This document shows, one piece after another, positions 16,059-53,866 of a stretch of 64,000 nt of DNA (position 1 is its first letter; every line of letters starts with the position of its first letter). Origin of the DNA: Pseudomonadota bacterium (GTDB lineage: Bacteria > Pseudomonadota > Alphaproteobacteria > Rhizobiales > Aestuariivirgaceae); contig CAUJIO010000058.1 of NCBI GenBank assembly GCA_963205315.1, positions 1 through 64,000 of the forward strand, read 5' to 3'. The notes below the pieces were generated by a model. That model had not been told where the DNA came from. It saw nothing but the letters and a program-made list of their open reading frames with translations, and did no database searches. The position numbers were made by a program, and so were the translations under genes.

Positions 16059-17765
16059 CGTTGGGGTGAGCGCCCGCACGCGATAGCGTCCACCCAGCAT
16101 GACGCTGGTGTGTTCGATCTCGGCGCGGCGGCGTTCATCCGTCCAGCCCAGTTCTTCTGCGGCGATCGCTGCGATGGCATCGACGACGCCTGCCGATATT
16201 CCATCCTCGAAGGGCAGGAGTGTGCGGCGAAGAATGATATCGGCAAGCCGCGTCACGCGTTCGTTGCGGATGATCCAGCGGATTTCGCCGGAGTGGTATT
16301 TTCCATCACCAAGTGGCTGGGTACCGGCAGACGACATGGTCTTGGCCACGTCGCGGGCGGCGGTGCCATAGCGGCGCAGCAATGGGGCGATACCGGATTC
16401 GGCGATTCCACTTTCCTTGCTTATTTCGGCGCGGAGGCTCTCGAGTCCAGGCTGATCGCCTGGCAGGCCCTTGCTGCCGCCGATGGGCTGGCTGAGTGTG
16501 CTGTTTGCATGCGCCTTGCCCAGATGTTTCATGACCGCTTCGGCGATCTGTTCGGCGCAGGCGCGGTAGGTCGTCCACTTCCCGCCGACCAGTGTCATTA
16601 CCGGATAGGGCCGCGTCGAATCGGCATCGAAGACATGCAGTGCGTGATCGCGGCTGATCGCGCCGGTGGCCGATGCGCCACTCCACGGCAACGGCCTGAT
16701 GCCAGCATAGGCAAAGACGATTTCATGTTCCTTTGCATTGCTGCCGGGAAGCACTTCATCGAGCACCTTGAAGAGGTAGTCGATCTCCTCCTTCGAGCAG
16801 GCAGGATCATCGGGCGCCTCATCACGGATGTCGGTGGTGCCGAGCAGGATCAGTTCGCTGTCGAGGGCATAGACGAGGCAAGCGCGGAAGTCGTGGGTTT
16901 CGAAATAAAGCATGCCATCGTCCAGCTGCTGCGCGATGTCAGGCCGCCGCATGACGAGATGTGAGCCACGCGTGCCGCCAATGAGGCGCTTGTCGATTCC
17001 AAGATTGCGGTCGACCGCGTCTGCCCATGCGCCCGCACAGTTCACCACGAGGCGAGGTGTCAGCGAAATTGTCTCGCCACTGATTTCGTCCCGAAGAGTG
17101 ACGCTCCTGCCATGGCTTTTCTGCAAGGAGACATAAGAGAGTGCCATGGACTGTGGGCAATCCTGTTCGGCATCCTTCATGAGTTCAAGCGCCAGCCGTT
17201 CGGGATGGACCAGGCGGGCATCATAATATTCGGCCACGGCGCAGACCCTGTCGGCCAGACCGGGGATCATCCGGTGGCTGGCGGCACGCGAGAGAATGCG
17301 GTGTGTCGGCATGTTGCGCGTCGCCCGGCCGAACCAGTCAAAAAACACCAAACCCAGTTTGACGACAAGAATGCCCTTGGCGCCCGGAGTCTTTTTCAGC
17401 TTCAGGAAACGCAATGCGGCGGAAAAAGCCCCTCCGAACCAGTTGAAAGCCGGGACCCAGACCGGAATGGGCTTTACCAGATGCGGCGCATTGCGGACGA
17501 GATGGTTGCGCTCGATGACGGACTCCCGCACCAGGGCGAACTCGCCGGTCTCCAGATAACGAAGGCCGCCGTGAATCAGGCGGGACGGGGCGGCGCTGGT
17601 GCCCGAGGAGAAATCGCCCTTGTCGATCAGAATGGCGGGGACACCCTGCAAGGCCAGGTCCCGATACAGGCCGATGCCGTTAATTCCGGCGCCGACGATC
17701 AGGACCAGAGTCTCGTCGCCGGGGCTCGCCTTCAGTTTGCCCAGCAGTTCGGCCCGATTGCGCAT
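16032..17765 (-). CDS. FAD-dependent glycerol-3-phosphate dehydrogenase-like protein (GlpD paralogue)
   Basis: A 577-residue GlpD-family flavoprotein that probably oxidises a polyol phosphate to a ketose phosphate and feeds electrons to quinone. FAD-binding elements are VLIVGAGINGIGLYRDLAL near the N-terminus, IHGGLRYLE, and the C-terminal VGGKWTTYR. It is longer than the 504-residue GlpD encoded at 36546-38060. The frame is open to 17882, but ATG 17765 (MRNRAELLG) has CAGGAAAA upstream. It diverges from an FGGY kinase, as EryA/EryB-type kinase and dehydrogenase pairs do, so a non-glycerol polyol phosphate is plausible (inference). Confidence 0.8.
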   Translation of the reverse strand: MRNRAELLGKLKASPGDETLVLIVGAGINGIGLYRDLALQGVPAILIDKGDFSSGTSAAPSRLIHGGLRYLETGEFALVRESVIERNHLVRNAPHLVKPIPVWVPAFNWFGGAFSAALRFLKLKKTPGAKGILVVKLGLVFFDWFGRATRNMPTHRILSRAASHRMIPGLADRVCAVAEYYDARLVHPERLALELMKDAEQDCPQSMALSYVSLQKSHGRSVTLRDEISGETISLTPRLVVNCAGAWADAVDRNLGIDKRLIGGTRGSHLVMRRPDIAQQLDDGMLYFETHDFRACLVYALDSELILLGTTDIRDEAPDDPACSKEEIDYLFKVLDEVLPGSNAKEHEIVFAYAGIRPLPWSGASATGAISRDHALHVFDADSTRPYPVMTLVGGKWTTYRACAEQIAEAVMKHLGKAHANSTLSQPIGGSKGLPGDQPGLESLRAEISKESGIAESGIAPLLRRYGTAARDVAKTMSSAGTQPLGDGKYHSGEIRWIIRNERVTRLADIILRRTLLPFEDGISAGVVDAIAAIAAEELGWTDERRRAEIEHTSVMLGGRYRVRALTPTSSTPPERN

Positions 17766-48911: not shown

Positions 48912-49220
48912 CTAGCCGCGCTTGACCGGCAATCCAGCCGCCTTCCAGGCTTCGATTCCGCCATCGAGAATGTAGGTCTCGGCATCCGTGCAATTGGCCA
49001 GCGCGCGTTCGTTCATGCGGGTGCGGGCGCCAGATTTGCAGTGGAAGACGATTACCGGCGGTGCATCGTTCAGTGGCACCCCCATCCGCGACAGCGGATG
49101 GTTGCGGGCGCCGGGAATATTCTCGGCCGCATACTCATTCTGCTCACGGATATCGATGAGCAGGGCGCCATCATCGACAAGCTTCCTGGCGTCTTTGGCG
49201 GATATATGTTTCAGTGACAT
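48912..49220 (-). CDS. Single-domain rhodanese
   Basis: A 102-residue sulfurtransferase. The active-site loop is HCKSGART with the persulfide-carrying Cys61. LIDIREQNEYAAENIPGARN and ILDGGIEAWKAAGLP are typical. It would move sulfane sulfur between glutathione persulfide, thiosulfate and acceptors. It lies 13 bases after the ArsR stop and before the exporter, forming a three-gene operon. Confidence 0.93.
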   Translation of the reverse strand: MSLKHISAKDARKLVDDGALLIDIREQNEYAAENIPGARNHPLSRMGVPLNDAPPVIVFHCKSGARTRMNERALANCTDAETYILDGGIEAWKAAGLPVKRG

Positions 49221-49233
49221 GTTTGGTTTCCTT

Positions 49234-49548
49234 TCAGCAGAATTGGGTTTTCAGCGTGGTGAGGAGCTGGCCGACGCGCGGATCGGCAACGCGATAGAAG
49301 ATCGACTGCGCATCGCGCCGGAATGCCACCATTTTCTCATCGCGCATGCGGGCGAGGTGCTGAGACAGCGCCGACTGGCTCAATCCAACCTCGGCGCTGA
49401 GTGCCATGACGCCCATTTCGCCGTGTTCGAGCAACTTGCAGAGAATCATCAGACGCTTCTCATTGGCCAGCGCCTTCAGCAGTGTCGCGGCTTCCGAGGC
49501 CTTTTCCTCAAAGCCCGCCAGCGACTGGTCGATCATTGGTACGGTCAT
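49234..49548 (-). CDS. ArsR-family persulfide-responsive repressor (BigR/SqrR type)
   Basis: A 104-residue winged-helix repressor. The recognition helix is LSQSALSQHLARMRDE. Cys37 (ILCKLLEHGE) and the C-terminal Cys104 (TQFC) sit at positions like the reactive cysteine pair of BigR/SqrR, which form a disulfide or polysulfide when sulfide builds up and release DNA. The surrounding rhodanese, exporter and MBL dioxygenase genes are the standard target set. ATG at 49536 (residue 5) is an alternative start. Confidence 0.88.
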   Translation of the reverse strand: MTVPMIDQSLAGFEEKASEAATLLKALANEKRLMILCKLLEHGEMGVMALSAEVGLSQSALSQHLARMRDEKMVAFRRDAQSIFYRVADPRVGQLLTTLKTQFC

Positions 49549-49572
49549 CCGATCCTCGTGAATTAGATATTG

Positions 49573-49596
49573 CTAATATATAATTCTCTAATATAT
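49573..49596. promoter_or_regulatory. AT-rich direct repeat, candidate BigR-type operator
   Basis: CTAATATAT occurs at 49573-49581 and 49588-49596, 15 bases apart, in the 79-base divergent spacer between the repressor and the MBL gene. TTAG-ATATTG-CTAA at 49563-49576 adds an inverted element. The run stands out sharply from the GC-rich surroundings, as BigR boxes do. Confidence 0.6.
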
Positions 49597-49627
49597 TGTC
49601 AAGCGAAGTTGCATACCTGAGGTCGTC

Positions 49628-50497
49628 ATGCGCCAGCCAATCATTCACGCCTTCTTCGATGAACCCACCAATACCGTCAGCTATCTTGTGGCTGATCCCG
49701 TGACCCGTCAGGCTGCGGTGATCGACCCGGTGCTGGACTACGACCACAAGTCTGGCAAGGCCTCGGCCAAGTCGGCGGATCAGATTCTCGAAAAGGCCCG
49801 TGCGGACGGGTTCACCATTGGGTTGATCCTGGAGACCCATGTGCATGCCGATCATTTGTCCGGTGCGCCCTACATCAAACTCAAGACGGGCGCAAAAGTG
49901 GCAATCGGCGAGCGCATACGCGAAGTGCAGAAAATCTTCCGCCCGGTGTTCAATGCAATGGACGTCTCCGGGGAAGGATCGGAATTCGATATTCTGTTCA
50001 AGGACGGCGACCGCTTCAAGATTGGCGAGCTTGGCGGCGAAGTGATTGCGACGCCCGGCCACACGCCAGCCTGTGTGTCCTATAAGATCGAGGATGCCGT
50101 CTTCGTTGGCGACACGCTGTTCATGCCGGACTATGGCACGGCGCGCGCGGACTTTCCGGGCGGGGACGCGCGTGAACTTTACCGCTCGATCCGCAAGCTG
50201 CTGGCGCTGCCGAAAAAGACGCGCCTGTTCATGTGTCACGACTATCTCCCCAGGGGCGGCCGCGACCACTATTCATGGGAAACCACGGTGGGAGAGGAAC
50301 TGGCTCACAACGTCCATGTGCATGAGGGTGTGAGCGAGGACGAGTTCGTGAAGATGCGGATGGCGCGCGATACGACGCTTGCCGCGCCGACGTTGTTGAT
50401 GCCGTCCATCCAAGTCAACATGCGGGCCGGGAATCTGCCGCCCGCTGACGCCAATGGCGTGCACTATCTGCGGGTGCCGATCACCCTTGCGTCCTGA
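49628..50497 (+). CDS. MBL-fold persulfide dioxygenase-like hydrolase (Blh/ETHE1 type)
   Basis: A 289-residue metallo-beta-lactamase-fold enzyme. Metal ligands are in HVHADHLSG (about residues 70-78), TPGHTPACVSY and FVGDTLFMPDYG. The CHDYLPRGG motif near residue 205 is shared with Blh of BigR operons. It probably oxidises glutathione persulfide to sulfite, which the neighbouring exporter would remove. It is divergent from the repressor gene and shares the AT-rich operator. Confidence 0.9.
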   Translation: MRQPIIHAFFDEPTNTVSYLVADPVTRQAAVIDPVLDYDHKSGKASAKSADQILEKARADGFTIGLILETHVHADHLSGAPYIKLKTGAKVAIGERIREVQKIFRPVFNAMDVSGEGSEFDILFKDGDRFKIGELGGEVIATPGHTPACVSYKIEDAVFVGDTLFMPDYGTARADFPGGDARELYRSIRKLLALPKKTRLFMCHDYLPRGGRDHYSWETTVGEELAHNVHVHEGVSEDEFVKMRMARDTTLAAPTLLMPSIQVNMRAGNLPPADANGVHYLRVPITLAS

Positions 50498-50570: not shown

Positions 50571-51464
50571 ATGGCAGTGTCTACCAACCTTCGCGGTATC
50601 GGTGCCGTGCTCCTTGCCACTGGTGCTTTCGTGGCCAATGACAGCTGCATGAAACTGGCGCTGTCGGATGCGCCGCCGTTTCAGGTGCTGGTGATGCGCG
50701 GCATCGCCGCCTGTCTGTGGTGCCTGCCGGTTGTGCTGTTCGCCGGTTTTGGCCGCGACCTGCCGAAAACCTTCAACCGTTGGGTCCTGTTGCGCTCCTT
50801 CAGCGAAGTTTTCGCCATTCTCAGCTTCATTCTGGCGCTGGCCAAGATGCCGATTGCCGATGTGACGGCGATTGCGCAGACGGCTCCGCTCATCGTGCTG
50901 ATCGGGACCTGGCTGATCTGGGGCGACAAGATCGGCACGCTACGATTCTTCCTGATCGCAGTTGGAATCACCGGTGCCATTCTGGTGGCACAGCCCGGTG
51001 GCGACGCGGCCTCGCCTTTCGCTATCTTCGGCTTCTTCTGTGCCGTCGGTGCGGCTGGCCGCGACATTGCCACCCGCAAGGTGCCGAGCGGAACGCCGGC
51101 TTTGATCGTCACCTTCTCGACGTTGCTCACCGTGATGCTTTCGGCCCTCGTCTGCCTTCTGCTGTTCGAGACACCTGTGCAGCCGACATTGCGGCACGCC
51201 GGGCTCATGGCGGTTGCAGGCATCTTCCTGATGTGCGGCCATGCCTTCATCTTCCTGGCCTATCGCATGGCGCCGGCGCGCGTGGTGGCTCCGTTCAACT
51301 ACGCATTCATGTTGTGGGCAGGGCTTTCAGGCCTGCTGTTGTTCAATGAAGTTCCCAATGCGCTTGCCATCGGCGGCATGACCCTCATCCTGCTGGCTGG
51401 CCTTGCGGTGGTGATGCTGGAAGGCCGGACACGGCAAGGTGAACGGGCGTCACCTGCAGCTTGA
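50571..51464 (+). CDS. EamA/DMT-family transporter
   Basis: A 297-residue inner-membrane protein with ten predicted transmembrane helices in two EamA repeats (GAVLLATGAFVANDSCMKLA and, in the second half, AVGAAGRDIATRKVPSG). The family exports metabolites such as amino acids or uptakes S-adenosylmethionine; the substrate cannot be told. CAGGACAAC precedes ATG 50571. It is upstream of the bufferin genes in the same direction, 71 bases apart, but probably a separate unit because the latter has its own strong ribosome-binding site and leader. Confidence 0.88.
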   Translation: MAVSTNLRGIGAVLLATGAFVANDSCMKLALSDAPPFQVLVMRGIAACLWCLPVVLFAGFGRDLPKTFNRWVLLRSFSEVFAILSFILALAKMPIADVTAIAQTAPLIVLIGTWLIWGDKIGTLRFFLIAVGITGAILVAQPGGDAASPFAIFGFFCAVGAAGRDIATRKVPSGTPALIVTFSTLLTVMLSALVCLLLFETPVQPTLRHAGLMAVAGIFLMCGHAFIFLAYRMAPARVVAPFNYAFMLWAGLSGLLLFNEVPNALAIGGMTLILLAGLAVVMLEGRTRQGERASPAA

Positions 51465-51535
51465 CGTCCAAGTGATTTCCAGTTGACCATGGGTTGGGGC
51501 AAGAACGGCTCATTGGAACCACAGGAGGACAATCC

Positions 51536-51826
51536 ATGACAACGACACGACGCAACACGCTTCTTGCCATCGCCGGTGCAATGACGGCCGCCATCGCCGC
51601 GACCGCCGCATCGACCGCATCCCAGGCGGCGGACATGGAGAAGTGCTACGGCGTTGCGCTGAAGGGCCAGAATGATTGCGCCGCCGGGGAGGGCACCAGC
51701 TGCGCAGGCACGTCGACAATCGACTATCAGGGCAACTCCTGGAAGCTGGTGCCGAAGGGCACATGCGTCACCACCGAAACACCACTGGGCCCAGGCTCGC
51801 TCGAGCCGATCAAGCGTCCAGCCTGA
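51536..51826 (+). CDS. bufA: Bufferin-type RiPP precursor (DUF2282)
   Basis: A 96-residue secreted precursor peptide. A signal peptide (to about residue 31, ASQA) is followed by a core with four cysteines: Cys37 ([11 protein letters not shown]), Cys48 (NDCA), Cys56 (SCAGTS) and Cys77 (PKGTC). Known DUF2282 bufferins carry this pattern; MNIO enzymes convert the core cysteines to thiooxazoles, giving a periplasmic copper-binding product. The signal peptide serves as leader. A strong ACAGGAGGAC precedes ATG 51536. It is followed by the MNIO enzyme, its partner and a DoxX gene. Confidence 0.9.
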
Positions 51827-51867
51827 GATTGACGGGGCGCGGGTCAATTCTGCGCCTCATTGCCACG

Positions 51868-52719
51868 ATGCGAGTGCCCTCATCCCTACCCGATCGCGGC
51901 GGCCTCGGACTGAAGGCCGAGCACTATCGCGATATTCTGGCTGCAAAGCCGGATGTCGGGTTCTTCGAGATCCATGCAGAGAATTATATGGGCGGCGGCG
52001 GTCCTCCACATCGATACCTCACGGCCATCCGCGTTGACTATCCGATCTCGCTGCATGGCGTTGGGCTTTCGATTGGCGGTGATCGCCCACTGGATCGCGA
52101 TCATCTGCAGCGGTTGAAGGACTTGAGCGACCGCTATGAGCCGGGCCTTTTCTCGGAACACCTCGCCTGGTCGACGCATGAGAGCGGTTATCTCTGCGAT
52201 CTGTTGCCGCTGCCTTATACCTCGGGAACGTTGCAGAGAGTCTGCGATCACATCGAGCAAACCCAGACCGCAATGGGCCGCCAGATGCTGCTTGAGAATC
52301 CGTCGAGCTATCTCGACTTCGAGGAGAGCACCTATTCCGAGGGACAGTTCATTGCCGAGATCGTGCGGCGTACCGGGTGCGGGTTGTTGCTCGATGTCAA
52401 CAACGTGTTCATATCAGCGGTGAATCTCAAGTTCCCGGCCATCGCCTATATCGATGCGTATCCGCTTTCACATGTGCAGGAGATTCATATCGCCGGGCAT
52501 GACGTGACGCGTGACGATGCCGGCCATCCGCTGCTGATCGATTCGCATGGCGCTTCAGTGGTGGACGAGGTGTGGGATCTCTATGCCGCGGTGATCGCCA
52601 GAACGGGCGCGCTTCCGACGCTTGTCGAGCGCGACAACAATGTGCCATCCCTCGACGTGCTGGTAGCCGAAGCCCGGCAAGCCGACCGGCTGATGCGGCG
52701 CATGGCAAAGGCATCGTGA
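51868..52719 (+). CDS. bufB: DUF692/MNIO multinuclear iron oxidative enzyme
   Basis: A 283-residue TIM-barrel enzyme of the MNIO (formerly DUF692) family that modifies cysteines of the bufferin precursor. Likely iron ligands are in [62 protein letters not shown] and LVERDNN, all matching the family. ATG 51868 (MRVPSSLP) is the family start but has a weak ribosome-binding site; TTG 51829 lies in frame right after the bufA stop. Translation is probably coupled to its neighbours, since its stop overlaps the bufC start (TGATG). Confidence 0.9.
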
Positions 52720-53435
52720 TGCAGGCCCGGCAATTTCATGATGCGATCGGCAACTGGTCGGAGCCGCTGCCGCACAGGCGTATGGCGGTGTATCGCAATA
52801 ATGTTGCAGTGGGCCTCGTCACGGCACTGAAGGTACGGTTCCCGGTGACAGAACAACTCGTGGGAACGGAATTCTTTTCCGCCATGGCGCTGGCCTATGC
52901 CGAGGGCGAAAGGCCAAGCAACGCGGTGCTGATCAACTACGGCAGCGGTTTCGCAGATTTCATACGTGGTTTTGAACCAGCGCGCACTATAGCATATCTT
53001 GCCGATGTCGCGGCGCTCGAGTCCTTGTGGTGGCGGGCGTATCACGCTGCCGATGCCACACCCCTGCAGGCCGCCGCGCTGGAGGGGATCGAAGCAGAGG
53101 CGCTAGGCGGCCTTCATTTCACGTTCCATCCTTCGGCCGCTGTTATGAGATCACCTTTTGCAGCGGGCTCCATCTGGCAGGCGCATCATGGCGGACCCGT
53201 GATGTCTTCGCTGAATAGTGAAGACGCCGAATGTATTCTCGTGAGACGGCCCTTCGCCGAAGTCTGCGTCAGCCTTATTCGGCCAGAGCGTTTCACCTTC
53301 TTGCACGAACTCCAGCATGGCGCCTCTCTGGCTGACGCGGTGGACGCAGCACTTGACCTCTGCCCAGGCTTCGATATCGCAACCGAACTGGCCGCCTTTT
53401 TCGCAGCCGATCTCGCAACAGGATTTTCCCTATGA
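52719..53435 (+). CDS. bufC: DUF2063 MNIO partner protein
   Basis: A 238-residue protein of the DUF2063 (BufC/RRE-like) family, the obligatory partner of the MNIO enzyme that presents the precursor. The N-terminal helical DUF2063 domain has [20 protein letters not shown] and [13 protein letters not shown]. The C-terminal part is less conserved. It overlaps both neighbours (bufB stop and DoxX start), so the genes are tightly coupled. The start is ATG 52719, with GTG 52716 possible. Confidence 0.88.
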
Positions 53436-53866
53436 CACGTCTCGTCGACTGGGTGATCGGGCTTCTGGCCCGCATCCCGTTCTCCATCATCGCGCTCATC
53501 GGACGGCTGGCCATCGGTCTTGCATTCTGGAACTCCGGACGCTCGAAGGTCGATGGCTGGAACATCTTTCACGTCAACGACCGGACATTGTTCCTGTTCA
53601 AGGAAGAGTACAAGCTGCCGTATGTCCCATCGGAGTGGGCAGCGCTGGCGGCGCAGATTGCCGAGCATGTGCTGCCGGCGCTGATCATCATTGGCCTTGC
53701 GACACGGTTCTCGGCGCTGGGCCTGCTGATCATGACTCTGGTCATCCAGATCTTTGTCTATCCGAATGCCTATGTCGTGCATGGCACCTGGGCGGCGGTG
53801 CTGCTGATGCTGATCAAATTCGGGCCGGGAACATTGTCGGTCGATCACATCCTCTACCGCCGCTGA
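53432..53866 (+). CDS. DoxX-family membrane protein of the bufferin operon
   Basis: A 144-residue membrane protein with four predicted helices (about 12-30, 68-88, 90-110, 113-132). The DoxX hallmark [20 protein letters not shown] is near residue 25. DoxX proteins are frequently encoded at the end of bufferin operons; their job is not established, and redox supply or export of the product are guesses. It overlaps bufC by four bases. Confidence 0.9.

Follow-up and report, generated by a model that had tools for sequence, protein, structure and literature searches.

A canonical Buf1 bufferin operon of an Aestuariivirgaceae bacterium and the repeated promoter element upstream of its precursor gene

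What does a compact unit of four genes, headed by that of a short cysteine-rich precursor, make in an alphaproteobacterium, and what might switch it on? The unit lies in a stretch of 64,000 nucleotides (hereafter the window) at the start of contig CAUJIO010000058.1 of assembly GCA_963205315.1, assigned to the Aestuariivirgaceae. We consider it highly probable that this is a canonical Buf1 operon for a periplasmic copper-chelating peptide, transcribed from its own promoter with half-sites of the OmpR-family type. The features on which this reading is built are collected in Table 1.

Table 1. Features of the bufferin operon and its upstream region (positions in the window)
Feature	Position	Strand	Basis
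Promoter element TGA-N8-TGA-N8-TGA, pattern TNACNNNNNNKTGATTTCCNNKTGA	51462-51486	+	Exact match; TGA at 51462, 51473 and 51484
-10-like hexamer CAAGAA	51500-51505	+	Position of the aligned CAnnnT; the copy in the window is without the final T
Ribosome-binding site AGGAGG	51523-51528	+	Read from the sequence
bufA, Buf1 (DUF2282) precursor, 96 aa	51536-51826	+	Pfam PF10048, 89.3 bits (cut-off 22.4)
bufB, MNIO enzyme, 283 aa	51868-52719	+	Pfam PF05114 (MbnB_TglH_ChrH), 352 bits (cut-off 25)
bufC, DUF2063 (PME-type 1) partner, 238 aa	52719-53435	+	Pfam PF09836, 71.9 bits (cut-off 27.2)
bufD, DoxX membrane protein, 144 aa	53432-53866	+	Pfam PF07681, 61.8 bits (cut-off 23.6)

Gene content and predicted product

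The original prediction had read the locus as a bufferin-type operon of DUF2282, MNIO, DUF2063 and DoxX genes, overlapping or tightly packed at 51536-53866. Both parts of this reading hold: the coordinates are correct, with a one-base overlap between the stop of bufB and the start of bufC and an ATGA overlap between bufC and bufD, while the identification is borne out by the Pfam matches, by the score of BufB above the NCBIfam bufferin-maturase equivalog NF050167, MNIO_BufB (383.9 bits, cut-off 310), and by the recurrence of the gene set. In 80 loci fetched by BufB similarity (like all our fetched loci, best-scoring matches and no random sample), BufC occurs throughout (80), BufA in 77 and DoxX in 65, and 64 have the complete set, counted as presence in the same locus and on the same strand, though not always as adjacent genes; because the full set occurs in so many of the loci, the association goes beyond chance. 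The other proteins score below the cut-offs of more specific NCBIfam models, namely BufA for BufA2 (27.8 versus 60 bits, so that it is not assigned to Buf2), BufC for the HvfC equivalog (27.8 versus 142 bits) and BufD for the HvfX equivalog (44.1 versus 80 bits). The DoxX gene at the end of the operon had been suggested as a possible peculiarity, and this idea was rejected: the core genes described for Buf1 are those of the precursor, the MNIO, DUF2063 and DoxX (PMC12452194), Caulobacter CC3254-CC3257 likewise includes DoxX (PMC3511200), and the gene is common among the loci of the BufB relatives, as counted above.

Conservation of the individual proteins is equally typical. The sole departure of BufB from positions conserved in at least 95% of 129 relatives is I208 in place of L, a conservative change; BufC, compared with 96 relatives, shows none at the 90%-conserved positions; and BufD departs twice from the consensus of 42 relatives (G29 for A, S38 for T) and is 43-78% identical to 11 DoxX proteins of other bufferin loci. 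Sequence searches with BufC found no PDB relative, and its relatives were recovered by fold alone: the AlphaFold2 model (pLDDT 93.7) matches TglI of the TglHI complex (8hci_A, E 8.9e-6) and Neisseria NGO1945 (3dee, E 8.0e-5). Judged by this model, BufC has the fold of the MNIO partner proteins. The operon of the window is thus a canonical, ordinary Buf1 member of a large, recently named family, whose DUF2282 precursor domain occurs in 154 of the 297 genomes of the order and in 49 of 100 relatives, the genome under study being included in both counts.

The core of the precursor is no exception. Its cysteines do lie at positions 37, 48, 56 and 77, as originally given, but the suggestion that the core (EKCYG..NDC..SCAGTS..KGTC) might differ in modification or metal was rejected, since the 11-8-21 spacing is the modal DUF2282 type, seen in 121 of 134 distinct cores as against 11-7-21 in 12 and 11-9-21 in one (four precursor matches, three with CFGT and one truncated, were set aside). 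As a separate observation, all but one of the 12 cores spaced 11-7-21, the shorter type, come from loci with two neighboring DUF2282 precursors; two such adjacent precursors accompany one MNIO in L006, L007, L009, L010, L026, L056, L064, L073, L105, L117 and L118. Inspected by eye, the N-terminus of BufA is signal peptide-like, with a positive n-region, a hydrophobic stretch and small residues ahead of ADMEKC. Tat export as a family trait was considered and discarded: an RRx-hydrophobic pattern occurs in just 8 of 143 precursors, and TTRRNTLL of the window does not fit it.

In the available accounts, the Buf1 precursor is exported, its two central cysteines being modified and the outer two forming a disulphide (PMC12452194), and PME1-dependent MNIOs install 5-thiooxazoles in products that generally bind copper (PMC12668002). 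The earlier expectation that all the core cysteines become thiooxazoles was accordingly too wide, the published Buf1 modification sites comprising only the two central ones (PMC12452194). By analogy with these characterized homologs, on which the chemistry, export and copper binding are modeled here, BufA would be synthesized with an export signal; BufB, an iron-dependent MNIO, and its partner BufC would convert Cys48 and Cys56 to 5-thiooxazoles; a Cys37-Cys77 disulphide would form after export; and the mature periplasmic peptide would chelate surplus copper, with DoxX as a putative membrane partner. Transcription would proceed from the operon's own promoter immediately 5' of bufA, with its three OmpR-family-type half-sites spaced by 11 bp. 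On the same analogy, the peptide made by the operon is almost certainly small, periplasmic and copper-binding, of a type already known and widespread.

A Buf1 operon with a different modification, or one serving another metal or stress (e.g. chromium, cadmium, mercury or oxidants), would have its precedents in the Caulobacter four-gene operon, whose response to chromium and cadmium is mediated by sigma F (PMC3511200), and in the existence of MerC-bufferin fusions (PMC12452194). However, the core, the cysteine spacing and the conserved residues of BufB are all family-typical here, no distinguishing sequence feature was found, and we regard a departure from the copper-binding product as improbable.

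The operon called bufferin 1 is, we take it, Caulobacter CC3254-CC3257. That locus matches the operon of the window in gene content and order (DUF2282, DUF692, DUF2063, DoxX) and is transcribed as a single sigma F-dependent unit (PMC3511200). The Buf1 family of the MNIO landscape paper has in common with the window the four cysteines, an exported precursor (in the window predicted as such), the MNIO, the PME-type 1 partner and DoxX, and no difference was found in the genes (PMC12452194). Buf2 bufferins share the MNIO and a short cysteine-rich precursor but differ in the latter being of the Buf2 family. The captophorins (fontiphorin, oxazolin and gonophorin), with which bufferins have been proposed to form one class, share the PME1-dependent MNIO and the thiooxazole chemistry, whereas their Lys-Cys precursors carry EGKCG repeats in place of DUF2282 (PMC12668002).

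A repeated element upstream of bufA

A stretch shared by the regions upstream of bufA in the window and in several relatives resolves to T-S-A-C, T-G-A-T-T-T-C-C and K-T-G-A at an 11-bp period. A matrix of 27 such sites, applied leave-one-out to 137 distinct upstream regions (143 minus six duplicates), places 35 of them above the 99% level of 4000 control windows (about 1.4 expected) and 29 above the 99.9% level (0.14 expected), where the controls exclude real bufA promoters and, having been taken anywhere in the loci, are mostly coding. The element of the window itself, with its own copies excluded from the training, scores 29.7 against a control maximum of 14.54. Because the elements are 61% identical pairwise, as against 31% for the following 35 bases, their conservation does not simply reflect close kinship. 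Alignment of 35 regions by the element alone further brings out a -10-like CAnnnT 13 bases past the last half-site, with C in 24, A in 26 and T in 23 of the regions. The transcription start would then be at about position 51512, past the EamA gene and 24 bases short of bufA. Given the positions of the element, the -10-like box and this predicted start, bufABCD is most likely transcribed from a promoter of its own, on which an OmpR/PhoB-type activator would occupy roughly -50 to -26.

This promoter anatomy points to control of the operon in trans. Its five neighbors scanned (48.9-54.7 kb) encode a rhodanese, an ArsR-family regulator, a Blh-like protein, an EamA protein and a glutamine amidotransferase, with no copper-sensor equivalog among them; the initial remark that no copper sensor lies nearby thus stands for these five genes, but not as a distinguishing mark of the operon. 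The ArsR/SmtB-family regulator (49234-49548, minus strand), located about 2 kb upstream and divergent to the Blh-like gene, reaches 86.3 bits with the broad NCBI 'metalloregulator' subfamily model, above its cut-off of 55, and resembles BigR, though under the cut-off (78.7 versus 155 bits). At 48912-50497, the genes for the rhodanese, this BigR-like regulator and the Blh-like sulfur dioxygenase are arranged around an AT-rich divergent intergenic stretch, and the order Blh-EamA-bufABCD-amidotransferase recurs in L058. As the Blh-like, EamA and bufABCD genes are co-directional with short gaps, the operon might instead be read mainly from this BigR-like/Blh-like/EamA region, as part of a sulfide or persulfide response; one related genome (L016/L058) indeed shows the order Blh-EamA-buf too, and another (L024) the order EamA-buf. 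Against this, the conserved promoter element lies between EamA and bufA, and L058 is alone among the 80 loci L058-L137 in having a Blh match. On these grounds the sulfide-response reading was rejected as very unlikely.

Across the order, the element pattern with at most one mismatch occurs at 82 sites in 65 of the 297 genomes, versus 13 sites for the reversed pattern (rows counted by eye), and at least 23 of these 82 are followed, within some 400 bases and on the same strand, by a DUF2282 match (also by eye). An attempt to delineate a regulon in the genome under study by the same kind of search was abandoned: with up to three mismatches it gave 55 sites versus 11 for the reversed pattern, but because 24 of the 29 sites examined lie inside open frames of at least 100 aa, codon structure accounts for most of the excess, and the reversed pattern serves poorly as a control. 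The site of L188 likewise falls inside a frame under another gene-calling rule. Near-exact elements stand upstream of a gene that by eye resembles NAD kinase in L157 and L160 of genus g49, this gene being next but one in the former and next in the latter, and similar sites occur elsewhere in the genus. Nor did the surroundings of the element offer a dedicated regulator: none was seen by eye beside it in the 18 other loci of the order inspected, and no two-component gene adjoins the operon among the 25 listed of 42 Pfam families (76 of 127 neighbor frames, 11 element-bearing loci).

The same genome carries a second, Buf2-type operon (G000:C44, locus L001; MNIO at 16371-17153 and precursor match at 17240-17464, both on the minus strand). 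A related tandem-repeat element is located at C44:17554-17578 (minus strand), about 69-93 bases upstream of the likely Buf2 ATG, and scores 16.8 on the final matrix, i.e. above the control maximum. The presence of this related copy suggests that both bufferin operons may be jointly controlled in this genome. In the Buf2 loci elsewhere, where 12 of 30 rows have a recognized precursor, the scores on an earlier matrix are 16.03 for this genome's own site, 9.63 for L219, 1.32 for L218 and below zero for the other nine; since the scores of the others are low, co-control of Buf2 is clear in this genome only.

Candidate regulators

The control described for Buf1 operons is by an ECF sigma factor of the sigma F/NrsF type, as in Caulobacter (PMC12452194; PMC3511200). 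NrsF is present in 119 of the 297 genomes of the order but was not found (PF06532) in the genome of the window, which is 99.86% complete and has the tandem-repeat promoter instead; such control is therefore unlikely here. Within the order, NrsF occurs in 1 of 23 DUF2282 genomes with the element upstream versus 60 of 131 others (Fisher p 1.1e-4, uncorrected for relatedness, with at most 10 candidates scored per genome). Counted by locus, one has both, 31 the element only, 23 NrsF only and 68 neither (p 0.0045; one NrsF query, duplicates L002, L014 and L016 removed), where many loci of about 3 kb hide some NrsF, such that the counts for 'element only' and 'neither' are maximum values. We consider it highly unlikely that a sigma F/NrsF-type factor controls this operon. 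In NrsF-bearing loci such as L028, L029, L041 and L099, TCAC-N7-GTNN boxes stand shortly before a GTAAC upstream of bufA, which we assume may be the sigma F -35; possibly, it is as if two controls were stacked there.

The tandem repeat has a counterpart in the CenR regulon of Rhodobacter sphaeroides, where the ChIP-seq motif, TGA-N8-TGA, lies 5' of the gene as it does in the window and has been reported to precede several operons of other Alphaproteobacteria; the targets are mostly exported or membrane proteins, a further likeness to the bufferin operon (PMC9275681). No annotated bufferin gene is seen in Table 1 of that paper, and DUF692, DUF2282, DoxX and copper are absent from its main text (PMC9275681). 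A CenR matrix was made from the 31 printed ChIP-seq sites, with only base frequencies coming from the loci analyzed here. It places 68 of the 137 bufA upstream regions above the 95% level of 358 intergenic controls (about 7 expected) and 30 above the 99% level; at the former, 200 column-permuted matrices give a mean of 6.3 and a maximum of 17, none reaching the real value, and the order-reversed matrix gives six. Matches are found in 30 of 51 alphaproteobacterial versus 1 of 23 beta/gammaproteobacterial loci (p 6e-6, this and all other p-values being too small on account of related sequences; classes from record titles, with L063 and L089, of unclear class, left out) and in 37 of the 61 remaining same-order loci. 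At a threshold of 9.79, exceeded by 15 of the 358 intergenic controls, 25 of 35 element loci, 15 of 32 NrsF loci and 26 of 70 with neither have a match; being present in all three groups, the CenR-type match is not confined to NrsF-less loci. Of 32 regions with the element, 13 have their best CenR match starting right at it, and in seven the match lies 32-33 bases further upstream.

This enrichment suggests that an OmpR-family regulator, such as CenR, may control bufA. That some member of the family does so appears probable from the sequences; CenR itself is the leading candidate, albeit a tentative one. A different OmpR-family regulator (e.g. ChvI, or a CopR- or UzcR-like protein) recognizing a similar tandem repeat is also to be reckoned with, as a possibility short of a probability. 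Three half-sites at an 11-bp period, with a -10-like box at a fixed distance, are generic for the OmpR family, and the genome under study has 12 Trans_reg_C places; moreover, the CenR score of the window is moderate (9.80, reached by 174 of 4000 random control windows) and that of its own Buf2 site low (1.9, reached by 3715 of 4000 controls). On the other side, the CenR matrix is enriched where none of the permuted ones is, and the UzcR motif CATTAC-N6-TTAA, as given in a review, is unlike the element (PMC8963506). As a control, the locus of tolQ, a published CenR target elsewhere, was scored with the CenR matrix and gave no clear site near the gene: the best plus-strand sites score 10.01 and 9.41, the nearer of the two lying about 370 bases ahead of the tolQ match. 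In the genome under study, an OmpR-family regulator in L239 is a candidate CenR by synteny with Brucella otpR and adjoins a weakly FtrB-like, probably cyclic-nucleotide-binding protein; a CenR-like site scoring 12.55 precedes the start of the regulator by about 112 bases, with two higher-scoring sites elsewhere in L239.

Implications for bufferin control

Taken as an operon, the locus is a further Buf1 member of a large family that was named only recently. What is new here, and the part worth following, is the repeated promoter element common to many of its relatives and the likeness of this element to CenR sites. Among the papers listed from a collection that covers few subscription journals, none pairs CenR with a bufferin, MNIO, DUF692 or DUF2282. 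We put forward, as a conjecture to which we give somewhat less than even weight, that many alphaproteobacterial bufferin operons are direct CenK-CenR targets and have no copper sensor of their own, sigma F/NrsF acting alongside CenK-CenR or in its place. If true, this would provide a testable answer to what activates bufferin operons that have neither a sigma factor nor a copper sensor next to them. It would also bring a copper-binding RiPP into an envelope-stress regulon, and thereby place periplasmic copper buffering within a general envelope-stress program.
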